Under the pieces are notes generated by a model, which saw only the letters and a program-made list of their open reading frames with translations, made no database searches and was not told the DNA's origin. A DNA stretch of 64,000 nt, from contig NW_026516226.1 of assembly GCF_025602895.1 (NCBI RefSeq), positions 496,001 through 560,000 of the forward strand, in the 5' to 3' direction. The stretch's first letter is position 1. Each line of letters opens with the position of its first letter. Positions 9,034 through 26,832 of the stretch are shown here, piece after piece. Both the position numbers and the translations under genes were made by a program. The DNA is from Polychytrium aggregatum (taxonomy: Eukaryota > Chytridiomycota > Chytridiomycetes > Polychytriales).

Positions 9034-10611
9034 TCAGGGCCACTTGCCGAGATACTGAAGGTTGAAGATGGCATTGCCCGATCGCTGTTTGGCGGACTTG
9101 CGCCACCAGAAGACGGCGGTATCGGTGTCCTGAGGGACACCTTCGCCCTTCTCGTAGCGGTGACCGAGATGGCACTGTCCATATCGATTACCCTGTTCGG
9201 CCGACTTGCGGAGCCACTCGGCTGCCTTGGTGTGATCCTTGGTGACCCCATATCCGTAGTAGTAGCCCAATCCAACCAGCCACTGTCCATACGAGTTGCC
9301 TTGGTCGGCGGACCTGCTGAACCACTCGAATGCCTTCTTGGCGTCCTCTGATACCCCTCCCCCACTACGGTAGCACTCTCCAATCCAAAACTGGCTGTCA
9401 CTGTGGCCTTCGTTGGCGAGTTGCTCAAAGATGACCGCGGCCTTCTCCTGGTCCTCGTCTGTTCCAAATCCAAGGAACAGACACACGGCCATGAGATGTC
9501 TGCACAGCCAGTCACGATCCGATCCAAACTGGTAGAGATTGAAGAACTTTTGGGTAGCGGGCGAGGTGGGGTCGTCATGGCCGTAGCCTGCCAGACATTC
9601 TTCCTCCGCAAGTTTGAAATCCCTCGAGTAGTTCTCTCGGATGATCTTGATGCCTTTCTGTTCGTCGCGCACGGTGCCCCGGCCAAGATAGTTCATCCAG
9701 CCAACCATGTGGGTGGCGATGGGATTGTGCATTGTGTTGGCGGACATGGTGCTGACTTCCTGCCAGTGAGCGAAGGCAACTTCGTCGCTCTGTTCGACAC
9801 CATGGCCGATGAACGAGAACCATGCTTGGAGGAACACAATGTGGAGACGGCCGTCCTCGTTTTCTTGATCGGCAGCCCTGGAATACCATTCGACGGCGGT
9901 ATCATAGTCTTGATCGACACCTTCACCACTCTCATAACAGCGGCCGAGGGCGATTTGGGCCCGAGATATTCCACATTCTGCAAGTCTACGATAGAGCCCG
10001 GCAGCCTTGGTATGGTCTTGGGTGACTCCAGTTCCGTTGCGATAACACTCGGCCAGGTCGAACTGTGCCATTGCGTGGTTTGTGTTGGCCGCTGATTCGA
10101 AGAGGCGGAAGATTTGCTGATGGATGGCTTGCCGCTCGGAATTGTTCAGCGAGGGTCCATAATCGAGATCGATTTGGACAATATTTGCCAGGAAGAATGA
10201 CGCGGCAGCATTGCCTTGTTCAGATTGAATTTCAAGCCAGGATCTGTCGGTTGTGACTGGATCCTCGCAGTGTAGCGAGAGGGCGATTTGGTCACTCGGT
10301 GTGAGGCGAATCCACGGCTCTCCGTCTTGATAGTAGAGTTTTGCCTTCTGGCACCACTTGCGGAAGCGAGGCAGCTTGGAGCTCAGGAGAGGACGAGCTC
10401 GCTTGCACACTCGGAGGAGGGTCTTGATTGTGATGTGATCGAGGGCGAGTTGGAAGCTGTCGTTGCAGCAGACAATGGCGAAGATGTCTGGGTTGTGGCT
10501 GAACGATGTTTGGGTTGGATCGGGCATCGACGAGGTTGTGCTGGCTTCAGCTTGGCTTTGGTGGGTGGGAAATGTCGCCGTGATTGAAGCAGGTTTGTTC
10601 ATGTTGGCCAT
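9034..10611 (-). CDS. Sel1-repeat (SLR) protein
   Basis: Unspliced, 525 residues. The chosen ATG at 10611 has context caacATGgcc; an in-frame ATG further upstream at 10737 lies in a TG-rich tract and is less likely. The C-terminal two thirds carry Sel1 repeats of about 36 residues with the signature A-x-x-x-L-G-x-x-Y-x-x-G-x-G-V-x-x-D-x-x-K-A: CYRNGTGVTQDHTKAAGLY, CYESGEGVDQDYDTAVEWY, CYRSGGGVSEDAKKAFEWF, YYYGYGVTKDHTKAAEWL and RYEKGEGVPQDTDTAVFWW. The roughly 150 N-terminal residues have no recognised domain; a short segment (DSFQLALDHITIKTLLRVCKRA) is weakly F-box-like. SLR proteins are adaptor solenoids (ER-associated degradation, chitin synthase activation); the client here is unknown. 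Confidence 0.88.
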   Translation of the reverse strand: MANMNKPASITATFPTHQSQAEASTTSSMPDPTQTSFSHNPDIFAIVCCNDSFQLALDHITIKTLLRVCKRARPLLSSKLPRFRKWCQKAKLYYQDGEPWIRLTPSDQIALSLHCEDPVTTDRSWLEIQSEQGNAAASFFLANIVQIDLDYGPSLNNSERQAIHQQIFRLFESAANTNHAMAQFDLAECYRNGTGVTQDHTKAAGLYRRLAECGISRAQIALGRCYESGEGVDQDYDTAVEWYSRAADQENEDGRLHIVFLQAWFSFIGHGVEQSDEVAFAHWQEVSTMSANTMHNPIATHMVGWMNYLGRGTVRDEQKGIKIIRENYSRDFKLAEEECLAGYGHDDPTSPATQKFFNLYQFGSDRDWLCRHLMAVCLFLGFGTDEDQEKAAVIFEQLANEGHSDSQFWIGECYRSGGGVSEDAKKAFEWFSRSADQGNSYGQWLVGLGYYYGYGVTKDHTKAAEWLRKSAEQGNRYGQCHLGHRYEKGEGVPQDTDTAVFWWRKSAKQRSGNAIFNLQYLGKWP

Positions 10612-11004
10612 GTTGATGAAGACAGGAGGGAGACAAGTGGGTGATTGCGATGGACATGAGTCAGAGAGAGGCAGGTTGTGGAGAAGTAAGCTTGACCCTG
10701 TCAAGCCAAACCCTGGCCATTGAACACACACACACAAGCCTGGCTCGATCCGATGGTTTGCTGGCTGGAGTCTTTGTTCTTATTGCACTGCCACAGGTAC
10801 TGCCACATGCATCGAATATGGAATCGATCATGAAATCGAGCCTCGCGGACTCATCATACAAGGCCAGATGCAATAGCCATTCGGTTATACGTTTATAGAT
10901 CTGAATCAAGGACGCTTTCTCGCTCAGATGATCGCCTTTGGGAGTACCTCCGGAAGCGAGAACAAACCCGACTCAACAAGGTCCCGTTTCGAGCGAGGTG
11001 CACC
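10612..11004. other. Spacer between the LDAH-like and Sel1-repeat genes
   Basis: Both neighbours are on the minus strand. It holds the Sel1 promoter and the 3' end of the hydrolase; a (CA)n run lies at about 10724-10736. Nothing else seen. Confidence 0.45.
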
Positions 11005-12518: not shown

Positions 12519-15500
12519 TTATCCCTTGCCATGGAACGAAAACCCGGCAACCTCGTTGCCGCCGAGGTCTGCTGCCGACTCTGTGGGCGTCAGGACCGTG
12601 GGTTCCTCGGTGAACATCTCATCAAAGAACCTGACATCGAGATCGTTGTCCTGTGGGGATTGTGATCGGCAACAGCATACGTTAGCCCCATCGGCAGCGG
12701 AAGTACCACCGGCGTTGGCCGGAGAGATGAATCTTGCTCAGCATCATATGGGCGATCGGACGGGATCTTACCAGCTCTGGTCGGAAGGGAGGAAGAATCT
12801 CCTTGTTGAAGAGCTTGGTAAAGTCGATGGAGCTGAAGAACGGATGGCTGCGAATCTCGAGCCCGTCTGCGGCACTAGCGCCGAGTCGCAGCGATGGGTT
12901 CCGCTGCAAGAACCGAGAGATGATGTCCTTGCTCTCCGGCGAGCAGTGGTCGGGATACTCGACGACTGAGTGCAGGATGTTGTATCGGATCTGCTCGCGG
13001 TCGTCTGAATAGAATGGGTGGTATCCGCACAGCATCTCAAAGATCACCACGCCAAAGGCCCACCAGTCGGCCCCAAATGAGTTCTCGAGGCCGCAGATGA
13101 CCTCGGGAGCCAGGTACTCGAGCGTTCCCACGAGCGAGACTGTTGATGAGTCGTCGCTCTCCTCCTCCTGCTTGCTGAGGCCAAAGTCAGTGATCTTGAC
13201 GTGGCCGTCCTTTGCCAATAGGATGTTTTCGAGCTTCAAATCGCTGCAGGGATCAGTTCATCAAGAAGTAAGACTGCGAGTTTCGCCTCTTCCCCAGCCA
13301 TGGCCGATGCCATCGCCGATGTCATTGCCACCACCCCTCCTAGCAACATCCTTGGCGGATTCAAAAAAGAGTCCTTACCGATAAGCGATGCCCTTGCCGT
13401 GCAGACATTCAATCGCGAGGAAAATCTCGGCTGCGTAGAAGCGCACCCGGTCCTCCGAGAACCGACCAAAGTTGCAAATGTGAAAGTACAGCTCTCCGCC
13501 GTTGACATATTCCATCACGAGATAGAGCCGCTCAGGAGACTGGAAAGCGTAGTGCAGACCCACGATGAAGGGATGGACGATGCTGCGGAGAATGTTGCTT
13601 TCGGTCTGCGGATCGCACTGGTCTTCGGCAGTCTTGTGTAAGACTTTGATTGCATAAGCCGTTCCCGTCGACTTTTGGATGCAGAGCAAGACCTGGCGGG
13701 GGCGAGTCGTGGAAGCGAGTCGTGGAAGACACATGTTAGGCTCTTTGGGTCTTGGCAGGGCTGCTCGTGGGGCTCTCCCGGAGCCATCGTGCGGCAGCCG
13801 CGGCCGTCACTGACCTTTGCAAACTTGCCCCGTCCAATGACTTTGTGGATCTCAAAGTCATTGATGGACATCTGGGGCTGGTCCTTTGATGCACTGCCGC
13901 CCGCTGTCAGTGTGGCACTCTTGGCTGGCTTTTGCACCGAGTTGCTGCTGATCGACGTGGCGATGGCACTGGTCCAGGCATCAACGTCTTTGGCGGTATC
14001 GACCGCAAAGGTCAAGCCGTCTCCGAATTGGTCCAGGAGCTGCCATGCGTGCTTGCGGTGGGTCGAAAACGGTATCTTGTTGATAGTGGAAGTGTCGAGG
14101 CTGATCTTGTAAACGTGTTCTTTGTGGTCCTTCGTGCGCTGGGTGACCTTGAGGAATCGGTTCTCAACATAGGCATAGCAGGACAGCCACTGCTTTTTAT
14201 CTTCAAGCTGGAGCGCACCCTGTTTGTAGATGTTGTCGGTCTCGATTTTCTTCCGGTTCGAGAAGATGCCAGCGAGTCAGGACGGAGGAATCGACATATA
14301 CCCGATGCTTGCCCCAAATGAGTCCCGACGTTTAAGGAGAGGCTCATGCCACCTCTGCTGATTCCATTATGACTACCGACATCCTCTCCTCCGCACCCTC
14401 CTAATGACATGCTCCAGGAGAGGATGTTTGCAATGATATCGTGGATGCAAGCCTACGGTGGCGATGCCAATATCGCAGCGATCCCGTCCACTCCACAGCC
14501 ACGAAGTGTCGATTCCATGCCACAAGTCCATTGTTTTCAGCCAGTAGCTGTGTCCACAGTATCCTCGTATCATTCAAGAACCAAACATCGCTCGCCATGC
14601 GCACAATACTCACTCGATTCAGTATTGCGTTCGACTGAGAAGGCCCCGTGCCGGTCATCGTGTTGAGCATCTTGTACAACTCGGCCAACTCGCCCCTTCC
14701 TTCAGGCACATCCTTTGCTTGAGGACCTGCAGCTTTGGGCGTGGATCGCTCCTCGACTCCGAAGAACTCGGCCAGCTTCTGCACCCTTTTTTCGCCGGTT
14801 CCTTGGCTTGCCGAATCATTGTCATCCATGTCGTCGCCTTTATCGACCTATGTGGGAGAGCACACGATGACATTGGCTCAGCGAGTGCGACATCTGAACT
14901 CAAGACACATTAATCAATCGACGACCAGAGCACTGATTGTGCGTTGTGCTATTTAAACAGAAAGCCATTGCATCGTGGCTGTTTTCAAGCAAGTAACCCG
15001 GGGGAGCGTGCTTTTGTGTGAGAGAAGCGGTAAGGCCGGGTGATCTTACTCTGTGGCCACGCAATCCATTCTTTCCCTTGAGTTTCTTGAGACAAAAGAT
15101 CTCATCCTTCTCCCACTTGACCATTCGCTCGTAGAGCTTTTCTTCTTGGGCCACGGTTCTCTCGCCTGGTTTCCGATGGTATGCACATCGTGGGATATTA
15201 GTGCGATTGGGGTGCAGAGCGTGTCCACATCGATACCTTCTTCTAGATCCAAGCCACTGCTGCGATCAAGCAGCTGCGGGTTTTGGCAATTCAACATAGC
15301 TGTTGTCTCCATCCTCACCCTTAATCGTCGCTACTGCATGTTCCCAGAAGCTACCAAGTCTGCCGATTGAGCCTCACTAGTCGATGCACTCACCTCCACT
15401 CTCAGGTAGCATTTCATTGATAACAAAGTTTTGCACCATATCCTTGATCCCGAGACTCTGCAGTAACTCTTTGATGGCCGTGCCTGCAGTGACGTTGATC

Positions 15501-18500
15501 GGTAGCGAGATGCTTGTGAACGTCATGTTGCCAAAGTAGAATCGCATGAGCACCTTGGTGCCATCCGAATTTACGATTCCTTGTTTCTGAGCACCACGTC
15601 GATTAAGTTTGTCGAACGGTGAAGGTGGCGGGCGAAGCGACGGCGAGACATTCGTCGACAGCAACCGGATACAATTGGAAAAAACACACGCATACAGAAC
15701 GCGCAAGAGCCAAATCAGTAATGGGATTGCGAGGGTGGTATTTGGAGACACCTCGCCAAGACAAGTCAAGATAAGAACACGGGTGGCAGTCAGCAACGCA
15801 TCATACCCGCGCCTCTAGCGCCTTGGACGGCGTATAGCTTGTCTTGATGATAGAGTGAATCTCTTTCATTTCCTTCTGTCCAGAGTCGACGCCGAAAAAG
15901 TCGGCGAGCTTGCCGGTTCGCTTGACAGGCTCATCGTCCTGGATAAGGATGAAGGCAATTCCGCGATCAGAACGTGGAGCTCGGAGCGTCGGGGGTATGT
16001 CCAGGGCAAGTGCAAACCGGGCGCTCGTCAACTCGAGGGTCCACAAGCATCAGTCTTCCTCGGCAAGAATTCGCCCACACTGTTGTCAACATAGACCACA
16101 GCTCAAGAGGAGACAGCCTACATCGTCGTAGTCATCATCGTCCTTGTTCTCGCGGGACTAATCGTGCCAGGAAAATGATTGAGATGTTGCAATCCGTTAG
16201 AACTACACCCGAGCGGCACCACTCGCAAGAATATGGATGTCCCAGCGACGTCGATACAGCAAGGACAATGATTCCCAGCCGCAGTGCAACAAGAGCGACA
16301 GGAGAGAATGCAGCGTTCGGCACGCATCGTCTGTGGGAATAGAAACCGTGCATACCCGCTGGATCTTTGCCGAGGATTTTTTGCGGCTTGTCCCGCCAGA
16401 ACTGGACTCTATCGTTTTCTCATCGAGTATGGACCTTGAGGAGTTTTCGCGGATTTGGAGCTGCGATTGTGACTTTGGACGACTCATCGATCGATCCAGG
16501 GACTTGGATCCCAGAAAGTTTGTGAACTTTTTCTTGAAACTCGACTGCGAATCCGAAGTTGGAAAGCCCAGGAAGCTGTGCGCGGCTGAAGGGCGACGAC
16601 TCGAGTCAGAGTCGCGAAGGTCCATATCGCTGGAGGGAGGTCGAAGCGTCTGGACGATGGTGGACCCTGTGGTTGTTGGGATGCTTTCCATGATCGCGGC
16701 CGCCTGCCTTCTGGCCTCTATCTCCTTCTCCGCAGCCATCTGAGTGGCAGAGATGTTTGTCGGTGGTTAGATATCGGCTAGCTCGACATCAATGCTGCGC
16801 AAACCGGCATGGAGTCACTAAACCCCAGAGTTGCTTGGCATCAAAATGCTCTCGAAGCTCGGTGACATTCCCTATGCCATCGCCACGGCATCCCTTTACA
16901 GTGAAATATACAGCGGATTGAAGGAAAGTACTCCCTCTCTGGTGCAATCGCCTCACCTGGCGCAGCTTCTCGATGGGCTCGAAGCTCTTTCTCCGCCTAA
17001 GCATCTCAGTGGAGAGTCCTTGCTCTGGCTCGGTGTTGATTGCATCCCAGGATGCGTTCTACATATCCCAATTGATAAGATGTATGTCAGACTGAATAAT
17101 CGGTCTAGGCCAGAGCCATGATATCGCACTGTCTGCTGTAGATGAGCAGAGCCGCATTTGCCCATATCAGTCCCCCGGATTCGAATGGGATAGATACCCT
17201 CTTTAGTCTCGTGTCGCGGTTCTGAAGATGGATGTTGCGCAATTTCTCGACATCGACGTCGTTCTCCTTCAATGAGGCATCAAAGTCGTCCATCATGGAC
17301 TCCAGCGAGCTCTTCTTCTTCTTGAGCGCCTTGGCCATGGTGCCCTTGCGCGGCATGGCACTACGGAAGTTGAACTGGTGTGGATTGGTAGAAGCGAGTC
17401 AGAAAGATGTACCAAACAGAGTCGTGAATAGTACAAAGTCGGTATGTGGGTGTCTGGAGTGGAAAGTACCGACCTCTTCGCCCCGACCGTCAATGCCAAG
17501 CCAAGTTGTGAGTTTTGCAGACTTTGCAATGATTTGACTCTTTCGGCGCTCGTCCTCGGCTTCCTTGTCCTCCTGAGAAACGATCGTCTGCAGCGGCTGG
17601 CAGACGGGAATGCCAAGCATGTTGACAAGCTTGGTAACCGTGGATTTGACCTGCTCACAAAGGCATGATTAAATGCGCTGCCTCAAGGGCAAAACCGACA
17701 TCCGATGACTGGTTCGACAGCTCTCCTGTCCGTGTTCATGTCCATGTCCTTGTCTTTGTTTTGTCTTTGTCTTTGTTTTGTCTCTGCCGCTGTTGGTCCA
17801 AGCTTCTTGCCATTGCTGCTGCCATGAATCAAAGCAAGTCACCGCCACGCCAAAGCAACACTCGCAGTATACCGTACCAGCCGTTTGAAAATGAATCGAG
17901 AGGCTGAGCTCCAGGGCACAAACGGCCGCGATTGCAGATCCAGGAAGCCCGACTGCTTGGGGTCGCCTGAAGGGCGATAGACAGGAACGGTGTCAAAATA
18001 GCAGGCAGTATGGGTAATGCCAATCACGGGACGCCATATTCTGGGTAGCCAATGCGCATCCGCACTCCAAACACGATCGGTCGTATGTGAAGTGCAGTCG
18101 CGGTAAGCACACAAGTACTCATGTCTCCGGTACCAACTATGCGGGATCGTACGTGACATCCCGGAAACCCCCAGCGCGAATACAAGAAAACAATCGTGCC
18201 ACACAACGGCAAGAGGGGACGGTACACTGAGTGCAAGTTTGCCGTCACGTACCCTCCACTTCGATCCATAAGCCCCAGCTCGTGCGCTCTTCGGCCTTCA
18301 GGTCCAAGATGTTCCACAAGATCTCGAGAACGTTCGATACGGATGTGGCTGTTTCGACGCAGATGTGGCGAACCGTCGTCGTTCCCTCGATAGAAATGGG
18401 CAGGTTCCACCGAATGTTGGACTTTTTGCGCAGTTTGAGCTTTATCGATTTGGCGACCGGCATAGTGTGGATTGGGTCGTTGATCAGCGAGGCAATCGTT

Positions 18501-19709
18501 CGGTTTGGATCGACGCGGATTTCTGTGCAGCAGCTCCCTGGAGAACAACGCAAAGGGCACGGTCTGTTGAGCATCCCCTCTTCCCACGGCAAGCGCGCAG
18601 GTTGGCATTGAGCCATATGTTGGGCTTCTTGGCATGCGGAGCCAAGTAGAACCGACGTTGGCGAAACCGGCACTTGCCAAGCCGATCCATCGATCGGTCG
18701 GACGAATCGAGTGTTGGGCATGACGACGAACCGCGCCAACCAACATAGAGGATACCTTGACGACAGCTCACTCACCTGTTTTGTCTTCGATGACCTGAAA
18801 TATCTTGAATGTCTCGACCATGTCAATGGCCTTGATTTTGGACAGAAAGTCCATGCGCACTTCGTGAACAGTCAGAGTAGGCTGGGTTTTGAGAGAGAAG
18901 GAGGTACCGTCGTCTTCGCGGATGATCTGCACTGGGATGATGGAGCCGTGGTGGACGGGGGTTTGGAAGGACACGGTTGAAGTCAACTCGTTGAGCTGCT
19001 CTCGGAGCCGCATGAGACCAAACTCCTCGGAGCCACTGTCGTCGAGCTGGCTGGAGACCTCATCGCGAGCTCCAGCCACGGATATCGACGTGCGACTGTT
19101 TTGTCGATCCGAAAGGCTCTGACGGCTGCAGCTCGAGGCCACGCTGTTGGAGCTGAGCTGTGGCTGTATCGGGCCAGAGGTCTCCTGAGGGCTGTCGGCC
19201 GAGGTTTTTCGCCGGGTAATCGACGATGCGGCGGCAAAGAAGGAATTATGGAACTCGCTGGGATCGATGTTGGACTTTCTGCGATTTGAGTTAATCGACA
19301 ATTTGATGTCGGTGGGCTGCAGAGAGCTCGATCCGCCCGAGAGGGTTCTCGCAAATCTGCTGAAGCCTTTTGGAGCCGGGTCTACTCGCAAGGTCGCAAG
19401 GCCTAGCGACGGGCTCTGTCCTTGGCTTTGCGTGCTGGCGCTGTTGGTGCCGCTGGTTTGGGGCTGGCCAGGAGCGCCACTGCTGTACCCGAGGGGAATG
19501 TGGCTCGTGGGTTTGAAGGTAATGTCGGGTGAAAGTAGTCCATTTGCGATGGTAGCAGCCTCGGATGGTACGTCCAGCTCGGGTGTGTGTGGGAATGAGG
19601 GCTGGGTGGGCGACGGATTGTTACTGCCTCTCCGACTCTGGTTAGGCGAGGACTTGGACGAGGCGGACTGGCTCAGCTTGAGGCTCCGGCCGCTGTTCGA
19701 GTTGAACAT
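12519..19709 (-). CDS. AKT-like AGC kinase with three RA-like domains and a PH domain
   Basis: Fifteen exons: 19709-18776, 18522-18253, 17966-17878, 17650-17474, 17374-17198, 17058-16957, 16739-16356, 15938-15807, 15586-15394, 15165-15050, 14847-14614, 14249-13815, 13692-13379, 13243-12772, 12650-12519; 4161 nt, 1386 residues. Residues 1-250 are Ser-rich and disordered. RA/ubiquitin-like folds lie at about 255-330, 338-432 (WGLWIEVEG, RFIFKRL) and 756-858 (KVLMRFYFGNMTFTSISL, GERTVAQEEKLYERMVKW). A PH domain is at about 940-1040 (KQGALQLEDKKQWLSCYAYV). The kinase (about 1067-1335) has GRGKFAKV, AIKVLHK, YRDLKLEN, ITDFGLSK, T-loop SLVGTLEYLAPEV and DWWAFGVVIFEMLCGYHPF. The tail DVRFFDEMFTEEPTVLTP resembles AKT, with turn motif TVLTPTE and hydrophobic-like motif VAGFSF. 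It probably couples Ras-type GTPases and phosphoinositides to AKT-type signalling. The weakest junction is donor gtcggt after exon 4. Confidence 0.85.
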
Positions 19710-20796: not shown

Positions 20797-20908
20797 CCAT
20801 GCCGACGCAGTAATGCCCGCGCAGTAATACCGACACAGCAATGCCAACGCAGCAATGCCAACGCAGTAATGCCAACGCAGTAATGCCAACGCAGCAATGC
20901 CGACACAG
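20797..20908 (+). repeat. 14-bp minisatellite, eight copies
   Basis: Eight tandem copies of a 14-mer, consensus taatgccaacgcag, exactly 112 bp. The central copies at 839-894 (offset from 20000) are the most uniform; the outer copies are degenerate. It sits about 450 nt upstream of the carrier ATG. Confidence 0.9.
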
Positions 20909-25585: not shown

Positions 25586-26832
25586 TCAATAGTACACCGA
25601 CATAACGACCTCCTTCTGGGCCATGCCGCACTTGGCGTAAAAGCCGATGTTGTGCTGCGAACAGGCCAGGAGAGTCTTGTAGGCTCCCTTTTCCTTGCCG
25701 ATGAACTTCAGGGCCTCGATGATACTTGCGGTTGACAAAGCATCGAGCGGGAGACAAGGTAGCGTGAGATTGTCAGTAGAGAGAAGGACAGTGAATGAGT
25801 CTCGGCGGGTACGACCGGATTTCGAACAGAAGAGCGCATTGTGGTCCCTACACCGGTGCTTACATCTTGCCAAGGTTCTTGCCTCGGGCACAGTCGTTGA
25901 CAACAATGTCCTCGATGTGGCCAACGCGACCGGCCTCGTGAATGAACTTGTCCTCGATCATGATGGTGCCAAGACTGTGGTGAGACGCCAGGCAGGAGAT
26001 AGAAAGAAATGGCGTAAGATGGGCTGTGTAGGTTTCGCTTGTTGAACAGAACAGAGGGACAGAGGGACAGAGGGACAGAGGGACAGAGGGACAGAGGGAC
26101 AGAGGGACAGAGGGACAGAGGGACAGAGGGACAGAGGGACAGAGGGACAGAGGGACAGAGGGACAGAGGGACAGAGGGACGGAGGGACGGAGGGACGGAG
26201 CAGATTGCATACCCGACAATCTTGTTGCTGGTGAGGTCCTCGATAGCGATGCAGTAGTAGATTTCGTTGAACCGCTTCAGGCGGGCGAACCGCTCTGGAA
26301 GGGTGAAGTGCGAGAAGCAGGGGAGTTGTGTGAGCAGCATGAGGAGTACGAGCGCCAAGTCGATAGAGCCAACAGAGTATACGCAGAGATGGACTCTGTA
26401 TGTGCTTACCCTGGAAGAGCTCCTCCGTCAGATTGCCGACAGTGGTGAGCTGCGAGAGGGTCTCGACATAGCCTGGAACAAAGGATCGAGGCCGAATCAG
26501 CAACCAGTCTACTTGGAGGGGGGGAGCCAAGGGGCAAGGCCAGACCGCGACCTTTCCAGGGGAGAGAAGCAAGGCGACGTGATACCTTTGTGGAAGTCAT
26601 CGCTGGCCAGGGGACGGATGGCGTAGTTCTCGTGGAGCATGCCGCGAACCTCGTCGGAGAACAGGCCCTCGGAATCAAACTGATAGTCGGGTCCGGAGAG
26701 GGTCTCGATGGTCAAGTAGGCGACCTCGGGCAGAGCGCCTGGGACGACAGCGGCCTTCTCCGCAGGAGCGGGCTCCGAGGGCCGCATGCGGAACAGCGAC
26801 ATGATGGCGCGAGGCAGGACAGCGAAGGACAT
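25586..26832 (-). CDS. GNA1: Glucosamine-6-phosphate N-acetyltransferase
   Basis: Five exons: 26832-26586, 26472-26410, 26294-26213, 25974-25864, 25724-25586; 213 residues, slightly longer than the typical 150-190. The GNAT fold is clear: IRPLASDDFHKGYVETLSQL, NEIYYCIAIEDLTSNKIVG, EDKFIHEAGRVGHIEDIVVN, the acetyl-CoA loop CARGKNLGKIII, and TLLACSQHNIGFYAKCGM. The enzyme acetylates GlcN-6-P in the pathway to UDP-GlcNAc, the precursor of chitin and GPI/N-glycans. Splicing joins are frame-coherent. Intron 3 contains a 150-bp octamer array starting about 12 nt inside the donor. An extra N-terminal segment of about 65 residues before the GNAT core has no recognised motif. Confidence 0.93.
26051..26200 (+). 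repeat. ACAGAGGG octamer array in GNA1 intron 3
   Basis: Sixteen perfect copies of acagaggg (26051-26178) followed by 2.75 copies of acggaggg. On the coding strand it reads as pyrimidine-rich ccctctgt units. Long open frames across it (repeating SLCPSVPL) are products of the octamer, not genes. Confidence 0.95.

Follow-up and report, generated by a model that had tools for sequence, protein, structure and literature searches.

An AKT-like AGC kinase family with Ras-associating domains and an altered PH-domain lipid site in zoosporic fungi and aphelids

Introduction

Can a kinase built like AKT be addressed directly by Ras-family GTPases, without phosphatidylinositol 3,4,5-trisphosphate (PIP3)? 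The question is raised by a gene on the minus strand (12519..19709) of a 64,000-nucleotide stretch of the Polychytrium aggregatum genome (contig NW_026516226.1, positions 496,001 to 560,000; hereafter the window, within which all positions are counted). Its product, the query of our searches, joins three Ras-associating (RA)-like domains, a PH domain and an AGC kinase in one chain. The domains, the catalytic residues and the loss of the lipid-site residues are observed across a family of related proteins. Judging from these sequences, we give somewhat better than even odds to a family of AKT-like kinases that have been uncoupled from PIP3 and are gated instead by GTPases of the Ras family.

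Results

One gene carries the RA-like domains, the PH domain and the kinase

The spliced frame runs from 19709 to 12519 through 16 exons and yields 1398 codons followed by TAA, without an internal stop and with GT-AG borders at every intron. Exons 1-8 lie at 19709-18776, 18522-18253, 17966-17878, 17650-17474, 17374-17198, 17058-16957, 16739-16356 and 16157-16122, and exons 9-16 at 15938-15807, 15586-15394, 15165-15050, 14847-14614, 14249-13815, 13692-13379, 13243-12772 and 12650-12519. The 1398-aa product begins with a stretch of low complexity, followed by a tandem pair of RA-like domains (RA1 and RA2), a linker, a third RA domain (RA3), the PH domain, an intact AGC kinase and a Pkinase_C tail. 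Pfam matches of the spliced query, listed down to E 1, include RA_2 (9.3e-13, two stretches), RA (1.2e-11, residues 781-859), Pkinase (9.1e-66, residues 1080-1322) and Pkinase_C (1.4e-5), all above cut-off. The original prediction of one gene with three RA-like domains, a PH domain and an AGC kinase is borne out by the spliced frame, by Pfam and by exon coverage in relatives. Its single open frame also stands; its count of 15 exons becomes 16, the additional one being an optional 36-nt micro-exon (SRENKDDDDYDD, 16157-16122), for or against which conservation gives no verdict and with or without which the frame is open. Exon 2 has two possible acceptors, 18522 or 18537, and all four combinations of acceptor and micro-exon leave the frame open. 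A DNA search of the 64.7-Mb assembly recovered the gene once, together with two further matches that are 79-base pieces at 76% identity.

The public annotation suggests another possibility, namely that two adjacent genes, one for an RA protein and one for a kinase, have been fused by our model. The public protein P0121 is a 324-aa, kinase-only model that matches the C-terminal 324 residues of the query at 100% identity and agrees with the splicing of exons 13-16 given here; the public gene model (12519-13856) seems to keep only the kinase, and a search with the PH-kinase piece returned comparably short kinase models from other organisms (P0122-P0124). The 30 longer relatives on which our comparisons rest came from a length-filtered search (0.55-1.75x the query, admitting ~769-2446 aa), so that short models could not turn up among them. 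Against a fusion, an RA Pfam domain stands beside the kinase in 27 of the 30, the exceptions being P0009, P0017 and P0020, for which no RA Pfam is listed. P0018, which bears a Trinity-style transcript name, contains RA, PH, kinase and Pkinase_C, all above cut-off, and P0001 has 3702 coding bases (1234 aa) on a 4024-base contig, leaving little room for introns. Exons 10-13, which encode RA3, the following linker and the PH domain, are alignable in 30/30 relatives. On these grounds we rejected the two-gene interpretation, which we rate as very improbable. Kinase-only public models and names such as 'RAC-alpha serine/threonine-protein kinase' obscure the RA-PH part.

Coverage differs sharply between exons. 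Exons 10-15 are at least half covered in all 30 relatives, exon 16 in 28, exons 4 and 9 in 29 each, exon 2 in 23 and exon 3 in 21. Exons 5, 6 and 7 (residues 491-711) reach half-coverage in just 4, 8 and 10 relatives, respectively, and form a variable linker, the least certain part of the model; exon 1 reaches it in 22, at identities of 17% or less. We conclude that the locus holds one gene, of which the middle linker and the start are uncertain.

The family spans chytrids, blastoclads and aphelids

At least 30 relatives were found, in chytrids (including Rhizophlyctis, Spizellomyces, Powellomyces, Geranomyces, Clydaea, Nowakowskiella and Siphonaria), in blastoclads (Allomyces, Blastocladiella and Sorochytrium), in Anaeromyces and in aphelids (Amoeboaphelidium). 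We take the EukProt sequence P0018, labelled 'Partr', to be Paraphelidium. Annotators have named members RAC-alpha, RAC-gamma, Sgk1 or AGC protein kinase. The original prediction had proposed looking for RA plus PH plus AGC kinase in other proteomes, and the combination is present in these chytrid, blastoclad and aphelid proteins.

The 30 relatives were taken from the best 120 of 2940 matches, the other 90 of the 120 listed being dropped, as their names and Pfam domains mark them as RSK or PKC. As many of the matches are animal RSKs, this sample does not show absence from Mucoromycota or Dikarya. Query residues 240-1060 found no homologue at E<=0.001 among 7963 candidates, presumably because too few exact words are shared across the RA domains and linker, while a region that includes the kinase recovered the family; the PH-kinase piece gave at least 120 matches, of which those listed are mostly RSKs. 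Counts out of 31 below refer to the query and the 30 relatives. P0121-P0124 are uncounted; P0125 is included in no alignment but A1 and A2, and A2 lacks P0030 and P0032.

A tree built from 44 kinase domains places all 31 family members in a single clade (100/100). Inside it the aphelids together with Partr (98/92), the blastoclads (100/100) and the other 25 rows (97/89) are separate, a split expected under vertical descent of these sequences; the query kinase lies among the chytrid rows. The kinases of the same genome that we call Sch9-like (partial) and Ypk-like pair with each other at 95/92 outside this clade, in keeping with the earlier claim that the kinase is distinct from both, and an identity with Sch9 or Ypk was rejected on this tree. 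AKT1 and AKT2 fall beside PKC (92/84) in a tree that holds two AKTs and none from protists, and constraining the family and AKT to one clade gave an approximately unbiased test p-value (p-AU) of 0.191. By sequence the kinase is AKT-like; the tree is compatible with AKT orthology but does not establish it.

The kinase is intact and has an altered activation loop

The AGC kinase (residues 1080-1322; 12871..13856 with introns) retains K1109, E1124, D1199 and D1217, and the catalytic K/E/D/D set is present in 31/31. Its likeness to AKT, claimed from the sequence at the outset, was corroborated by comparison with solved structures, among which AKT2/AKT1 score best at 309 bits vs 270 for PKC eta and 269 for SGK1. 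For a model of the relative P0014, the six best fold matches are AKT1/AKT2 chains with PH domain and kinase (target TM 0.59-0.65), at a root-mean-square deviation of ~15 Å, which means that the arrangement of the domains differs.

The activation loop STVSLVGTLEYLAPE has Ser1234 (13137-13135) at the T308 position and in most of the family reads x[ILV]VGTLE vs TFCGTPE in AKT. The T308 position is occupied by S in 16, E in 4, T in 3 and other residues in 8 of the 31; position 309 is never Phe, position 310 is never Cys (Val in 20/31) and position 313 is Leu in 25/31. PDK1 could use Ser at the T308 position, as in RSK, and Ser1234 of the query could still be phosphorylated; in relatives with E, K or V there, PDK1 could not use the residue. 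The C-tail, encoded by exon 16 (12519..12650), carries an LTP turn motif (VLTPTES) and a hydrophobic-motif-like VAGFSF (12551-12534) that starts with V vs F. Across the family, the F472 position is Phe in 14/31 and a gap in 13/31, and the T450 position is Thr in 18/31. The AKT1 reference sequence, the last 37 letters of its tail included, is an assumed one.

The PH domain keeps the AKT fold and loses the lipid-contact residues

The PH domain (residues 955-1045; 13959..14231) has no Pfam match in the query in the list to E 1. PF00169 is listed for 15/30 relatives, and the domain lies above cut-off in the three relatives scanned (P0125, 6.4e-7; P0018, 6e-10; P0012, 8.1e-10). Aligned by hhalign, the family PH profile matches the AKT1 PH domain at E 8e-13. 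An AlphaFold2 model of exon 13 forms seven strands and a C-terminal helix, with block means of the predicted local distance difference test (pLDDT) of 91-97 over residues 11-100, and in a Foldseek search its 50 listed PDB matches are all PH domains or PH-containing proteins, with AKT PH entries at ranks 9, 11, 21, 30, 37 and 38. Matches to the GTPase-binding PH domains of Exo84 and PLCg2 were too unspecific and were not used.

In the portion of PMC8379990 available, the headgroup is coordinated by AKT residues K14, R25 and R86, while in autoinhibited AKT1 kinase residues D323-D325 contact K14, R23, R25, N53 and Q79 of the PH domain; R25C appears in the accessible text of PMC11429874 as an AKT PH control that does not bind PIP3. 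At the positions of K14, R23, R25 and R86, the query has L, L, C and L, the Cys being Cys972 (14180-14178). Counted with AKT1 aligned in, and with two alignments in agreement, Arg or Lys is present at the R25 position in 0/31 (Cys in 9, the query included, and His in 4) and at the R86 position in 0/31 (His in 11). The K14 position is basic in 9/31 (8 Lys, 1 Arg) and the R23 position has Arg or Lys in 8/31. On the kinase side, 30 of the 31 sequences have Gly at the D323 position and the remaining one has Asn, and the D325 position is D or E in 7/31 (E in the query). By these alignments, the PH domain is homologous to that of AKT, and its PIP3-contact residues are lost across the family. With R25 and R86 lost and D323 replaced, neither side of the AKT lipid switch is conserved. 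The original prediction of joint recruitment by Ras-family GTPases and phosphoinositides is thus not supported as regards an AKT-type site.

A further explanation is an ordinary AKT with extra domains, in which the PH domain senses phosphoinositides, perhaps PI4P, PI(4,5)P2 or PI(3,4)P2 through a non-canonical site, and the RA domains refine targeting. The profile match to AKT1 and the AKT1/AKT2-like fold of P0014 would fit it, as would the Lys at K14 and the basic residue at R23, each kept in 8/31, and a PTEN_C2 domain in the genome. It is opposed by the residues at R25, R86 and D323 and by the upstream parts of the genome, where a profile search for the PI3Ka domain gave three matches at two loci and no class I PI3K. 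One locus is Vps34-type (1.3e-15 vs 1.1e-3 for p110 delta, by a fragment) and the other PI4KA-type (2.5e-9 vs 4e-3, also by a fragment). We consider this explanation unlikely. Class I PI3K and Akt are both absent from the limited set of plants and fungi examined, Ras being present in the fungi, according to the available part of PMC6304743, and PMC3823935, as far as its text was accessible, infers that fungi lost class I PI3K.

Three RA-like domains accompany a recurrent linker motif

RA1 covers residues 256-344 (18944-18776 and 18522-18425). RA2 begins with residues 345-401 (18424-18253), and its last strands, residues 402-431, lie in exon 3 (17878..17966). RA3 covers residues 770-862 (15580-15394 and 15165-15074; span 15074..15580), with Arg782 in strand 1. 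In the query, RA3 gives the Pfam matches reported above, and the N-terminal pair is weak, RA_2 reaching 8.5e-6 with 26.2 bits vs a cut-off of 27. Five of six relatives examined have RA and/or RA_2 above cut-off, P0012 falling below, and four have two stretches, each at E<=1. Family profiles compared by hhalign match RA1 to RA3 at 6.7e-7 (probability 92%), RA2 to RA3 at 2.9e-5 (74%, over 82 columns) and RA1 to RA2 at 4.4e-4 (34%), with PH and kinase controls at 0.054 or worse. The RA3 of P0014 was modelled at a pLDDT of ~90 with a ubiquitin-like order of strands and helices, within a model of overall mean pLDDT 68.8 and predicted TM-score (pTM) 0.46. An RA/ubiquitin-like fold is predicted for RA3 by Pfam and this model, and for RA1 and RA2 by sequence profiles; the fold proposed earlier for the three regions thus found agreement. 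By coverage, the N-terminal pair is present in 24/31 rows, and RA3 in all aligned rows.

A motif of the form KLxx[FWML][FL]G[VI] recurs between and beside the RA domains (14614-17650, residues 432-948). Exon 4 (17474..17650) holds the first such motifs in the family alignment, the looser VTKLVNMLGI and KSAKLTTWLGI; the conserved exon 9 (15807..15938) holds KRTGKLADFFGV ahead of RA3; and the conserved exon 12 (14614..14847) holds KRVQKLAEFFGV with the RA3-PH linker. Relatives have up to four copies, and a regular expression found at least one in 30/31, with none in P0086. Elsewhere in the genome, the strongest single-exon RA match (L036; G000:C68:508076-508345) scores 7.1e-9 and lies inside a separate open frame of 408 codons.

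Discussion

A direct GTPase input is proposed

We propose that the family is an AGC kinase built like AKT, with PH domain, kinase and C-tail, that has exchanged its upstream input. Its PH domain retains the fold but not the AKT-type PIP3 pocket residues and would serve as a structural or protein-binding module, and its kinase has lost the acidic residue that clamps the PH pocket in AKT. By binding the RA domains, GTP-loaded Ras-family GTPases would position the kinase at a membrane and/or unlock it there, a direct link from GTPase to AGC kinase that would need no class I PI3K. As the AKT-type lipid site is absent, joint recruitment by Ras and phosphoinositides would be replaced by this GTPase input. 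Ras binding and a by-pass of PI3K are plausible from the sequence features; GTPase binding itself, the particular GTPase, the release of inhibition and the substrates are what we infer.

The residues that would make such contacts bear on a different possibility, that the RA domains act as scaffolds with a ubiquitin fold and bind no GTPase, their role being autoinhibition of the kinase or contact with other proteins. Membership of the RA family alone is no proof of Ras binding, and some RA domains bind other proteins. With the RalGDS contact residues R20, K32 and K52 assumed as reference positions, the query lacks a K52-type base in RA3, and its RA1 and RA2 are weak Pfam matches, as a scaffold might show. 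Against this, RalGDS-type basic contacts are kept in RA3 at strand 1 (the R20 position, register inferred; 30/31) and helix 1 (the K52 position; 29/31), and in RA2 at strand 2 (the K32 position; 19 of the 24 rows with the domain). We think a scaffold role improbable, though less so than a fusion of two genes.

Other observations count against a GTPase-gated kinase uncoupled from PIP3. The three RA profiles match the RalGDS RA domain weakly (1.1e-3, 3.4e-4 and 1.4e-4, at probabilities of 20-53%; PH and kinase profiles gave 0.24 and 0.38), the K52 position in RA3 of the query is occupied by Ser, and only 3/31 have Lys at the K32 (strand-2) position of RA3. The N-terminal RA pair is absent from the models of all 3 blastoclads; the seven rows without the pair, these three included, start later, so truncation and real absence are inseparable. 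A PH domain may also use other surfaces to bind lipids or proteins. The genome encodes one PTEN_C2 domain (1.1e-20), so some 3-phosphoinositide metabolism may exist, and a second, canonical AKT may be present, 20 of the 99 listed kinase matches having been fetched. A genome search for PI3K_rbd was silent, as were its controls, and hence gives no evidence of absence.

It is possible, though we lean against it, that an AKT-like kinase persisted in early fungi and aphelids with its input switched to Ras-family GTPases bound through RA domains and with PIP3 no longer read, the family then going back to an ancestor shared by aphelids and fungi and being lost or replaced later. If GTPase input is as proposed, the Ras-PI3K-AKT module would have been rewired rather than lost in zoosporic fungi and aphelids, and a direct line from Ras to an AGC kinase would have existed before its loss or replacement in later fungi.

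Surroundings of the locus

An adjoining stop-to-stop frame on the minus strand (9034-10779, 581 codons) contains five Sel1 stretches (Pfam 1.2e-57). The window also holds two tandem arrays, one of an 8-bp unit (ACAGAGGG) in 18.8 copies at 99% (26051-26200) and one of a 14-bp unit in 7.4 copies at 86% (20799-20901). Kinase matches in this genome are often paired across contigs (e.g. C118/C386 and C218/C404), so the assembly seems partly uncollapsed, while the RA-PH-AGC gene occurs once.

Comparison with known systems

A literature search over the titles and abstract openings of the papers ranked first found no published account of a fungal RA-PH-AGC kinase. The order RA-RA-RA-PH-AGC, suspected at first to be undescribed, has accordingly met no description in that search, but it is not unique to this genome and recurs in a conserved family.

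The nearest known system is AKT/PKB (the RAC kinases), which shares the order PH, AGC kinase and Pkinase_C tail and supplies the closest solved structures by sequence and fold. The family differs from it by added RA domains, by lacking the PIP3-site residues and D323, and by a loop of the form x[ILV]VGTLE instead of TFCGTPE. Fungal Sch9 and Ypk are likewise AGC kinases with C-tails, but the Sch9-like and Ypk-like kinases of this genome have TFCGT loops and stand outside the family.

RA followed by PH is also found in Grb7/10/14, RIAM/lamellipodin and PHLPP, which are adaptors or phosphatase-type proteins and not kinases; RA3 compared with the Grb14 RA-PH region is at chance level (E 0.6). A ubiquitin-fold Ras-binding domain and a kinase occur in one chain in class I PI3K and Raf. 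The former phosphorylates lipids and the latter belongs to the TKL kinases, whereas the present family pairs an AGC kinase with RA and PH domains. The ciliate proteins TtPHK2 and TtPHK10, in the part of PMC3823935 at hand, resemble the family in joining an AKT-like kinase to added N-terminal modules, and differ in having ankyrin repeats in place of RA domains and in belonging to organisms with class I PI3K.

AKT-type kinases themselves are known; what these comparisons suggest to be new is a family of AKT-like AGC kinases with an exchanged input, a natural experiment that would separate the output of an AKT-type kinase from the sensing of PIP3.

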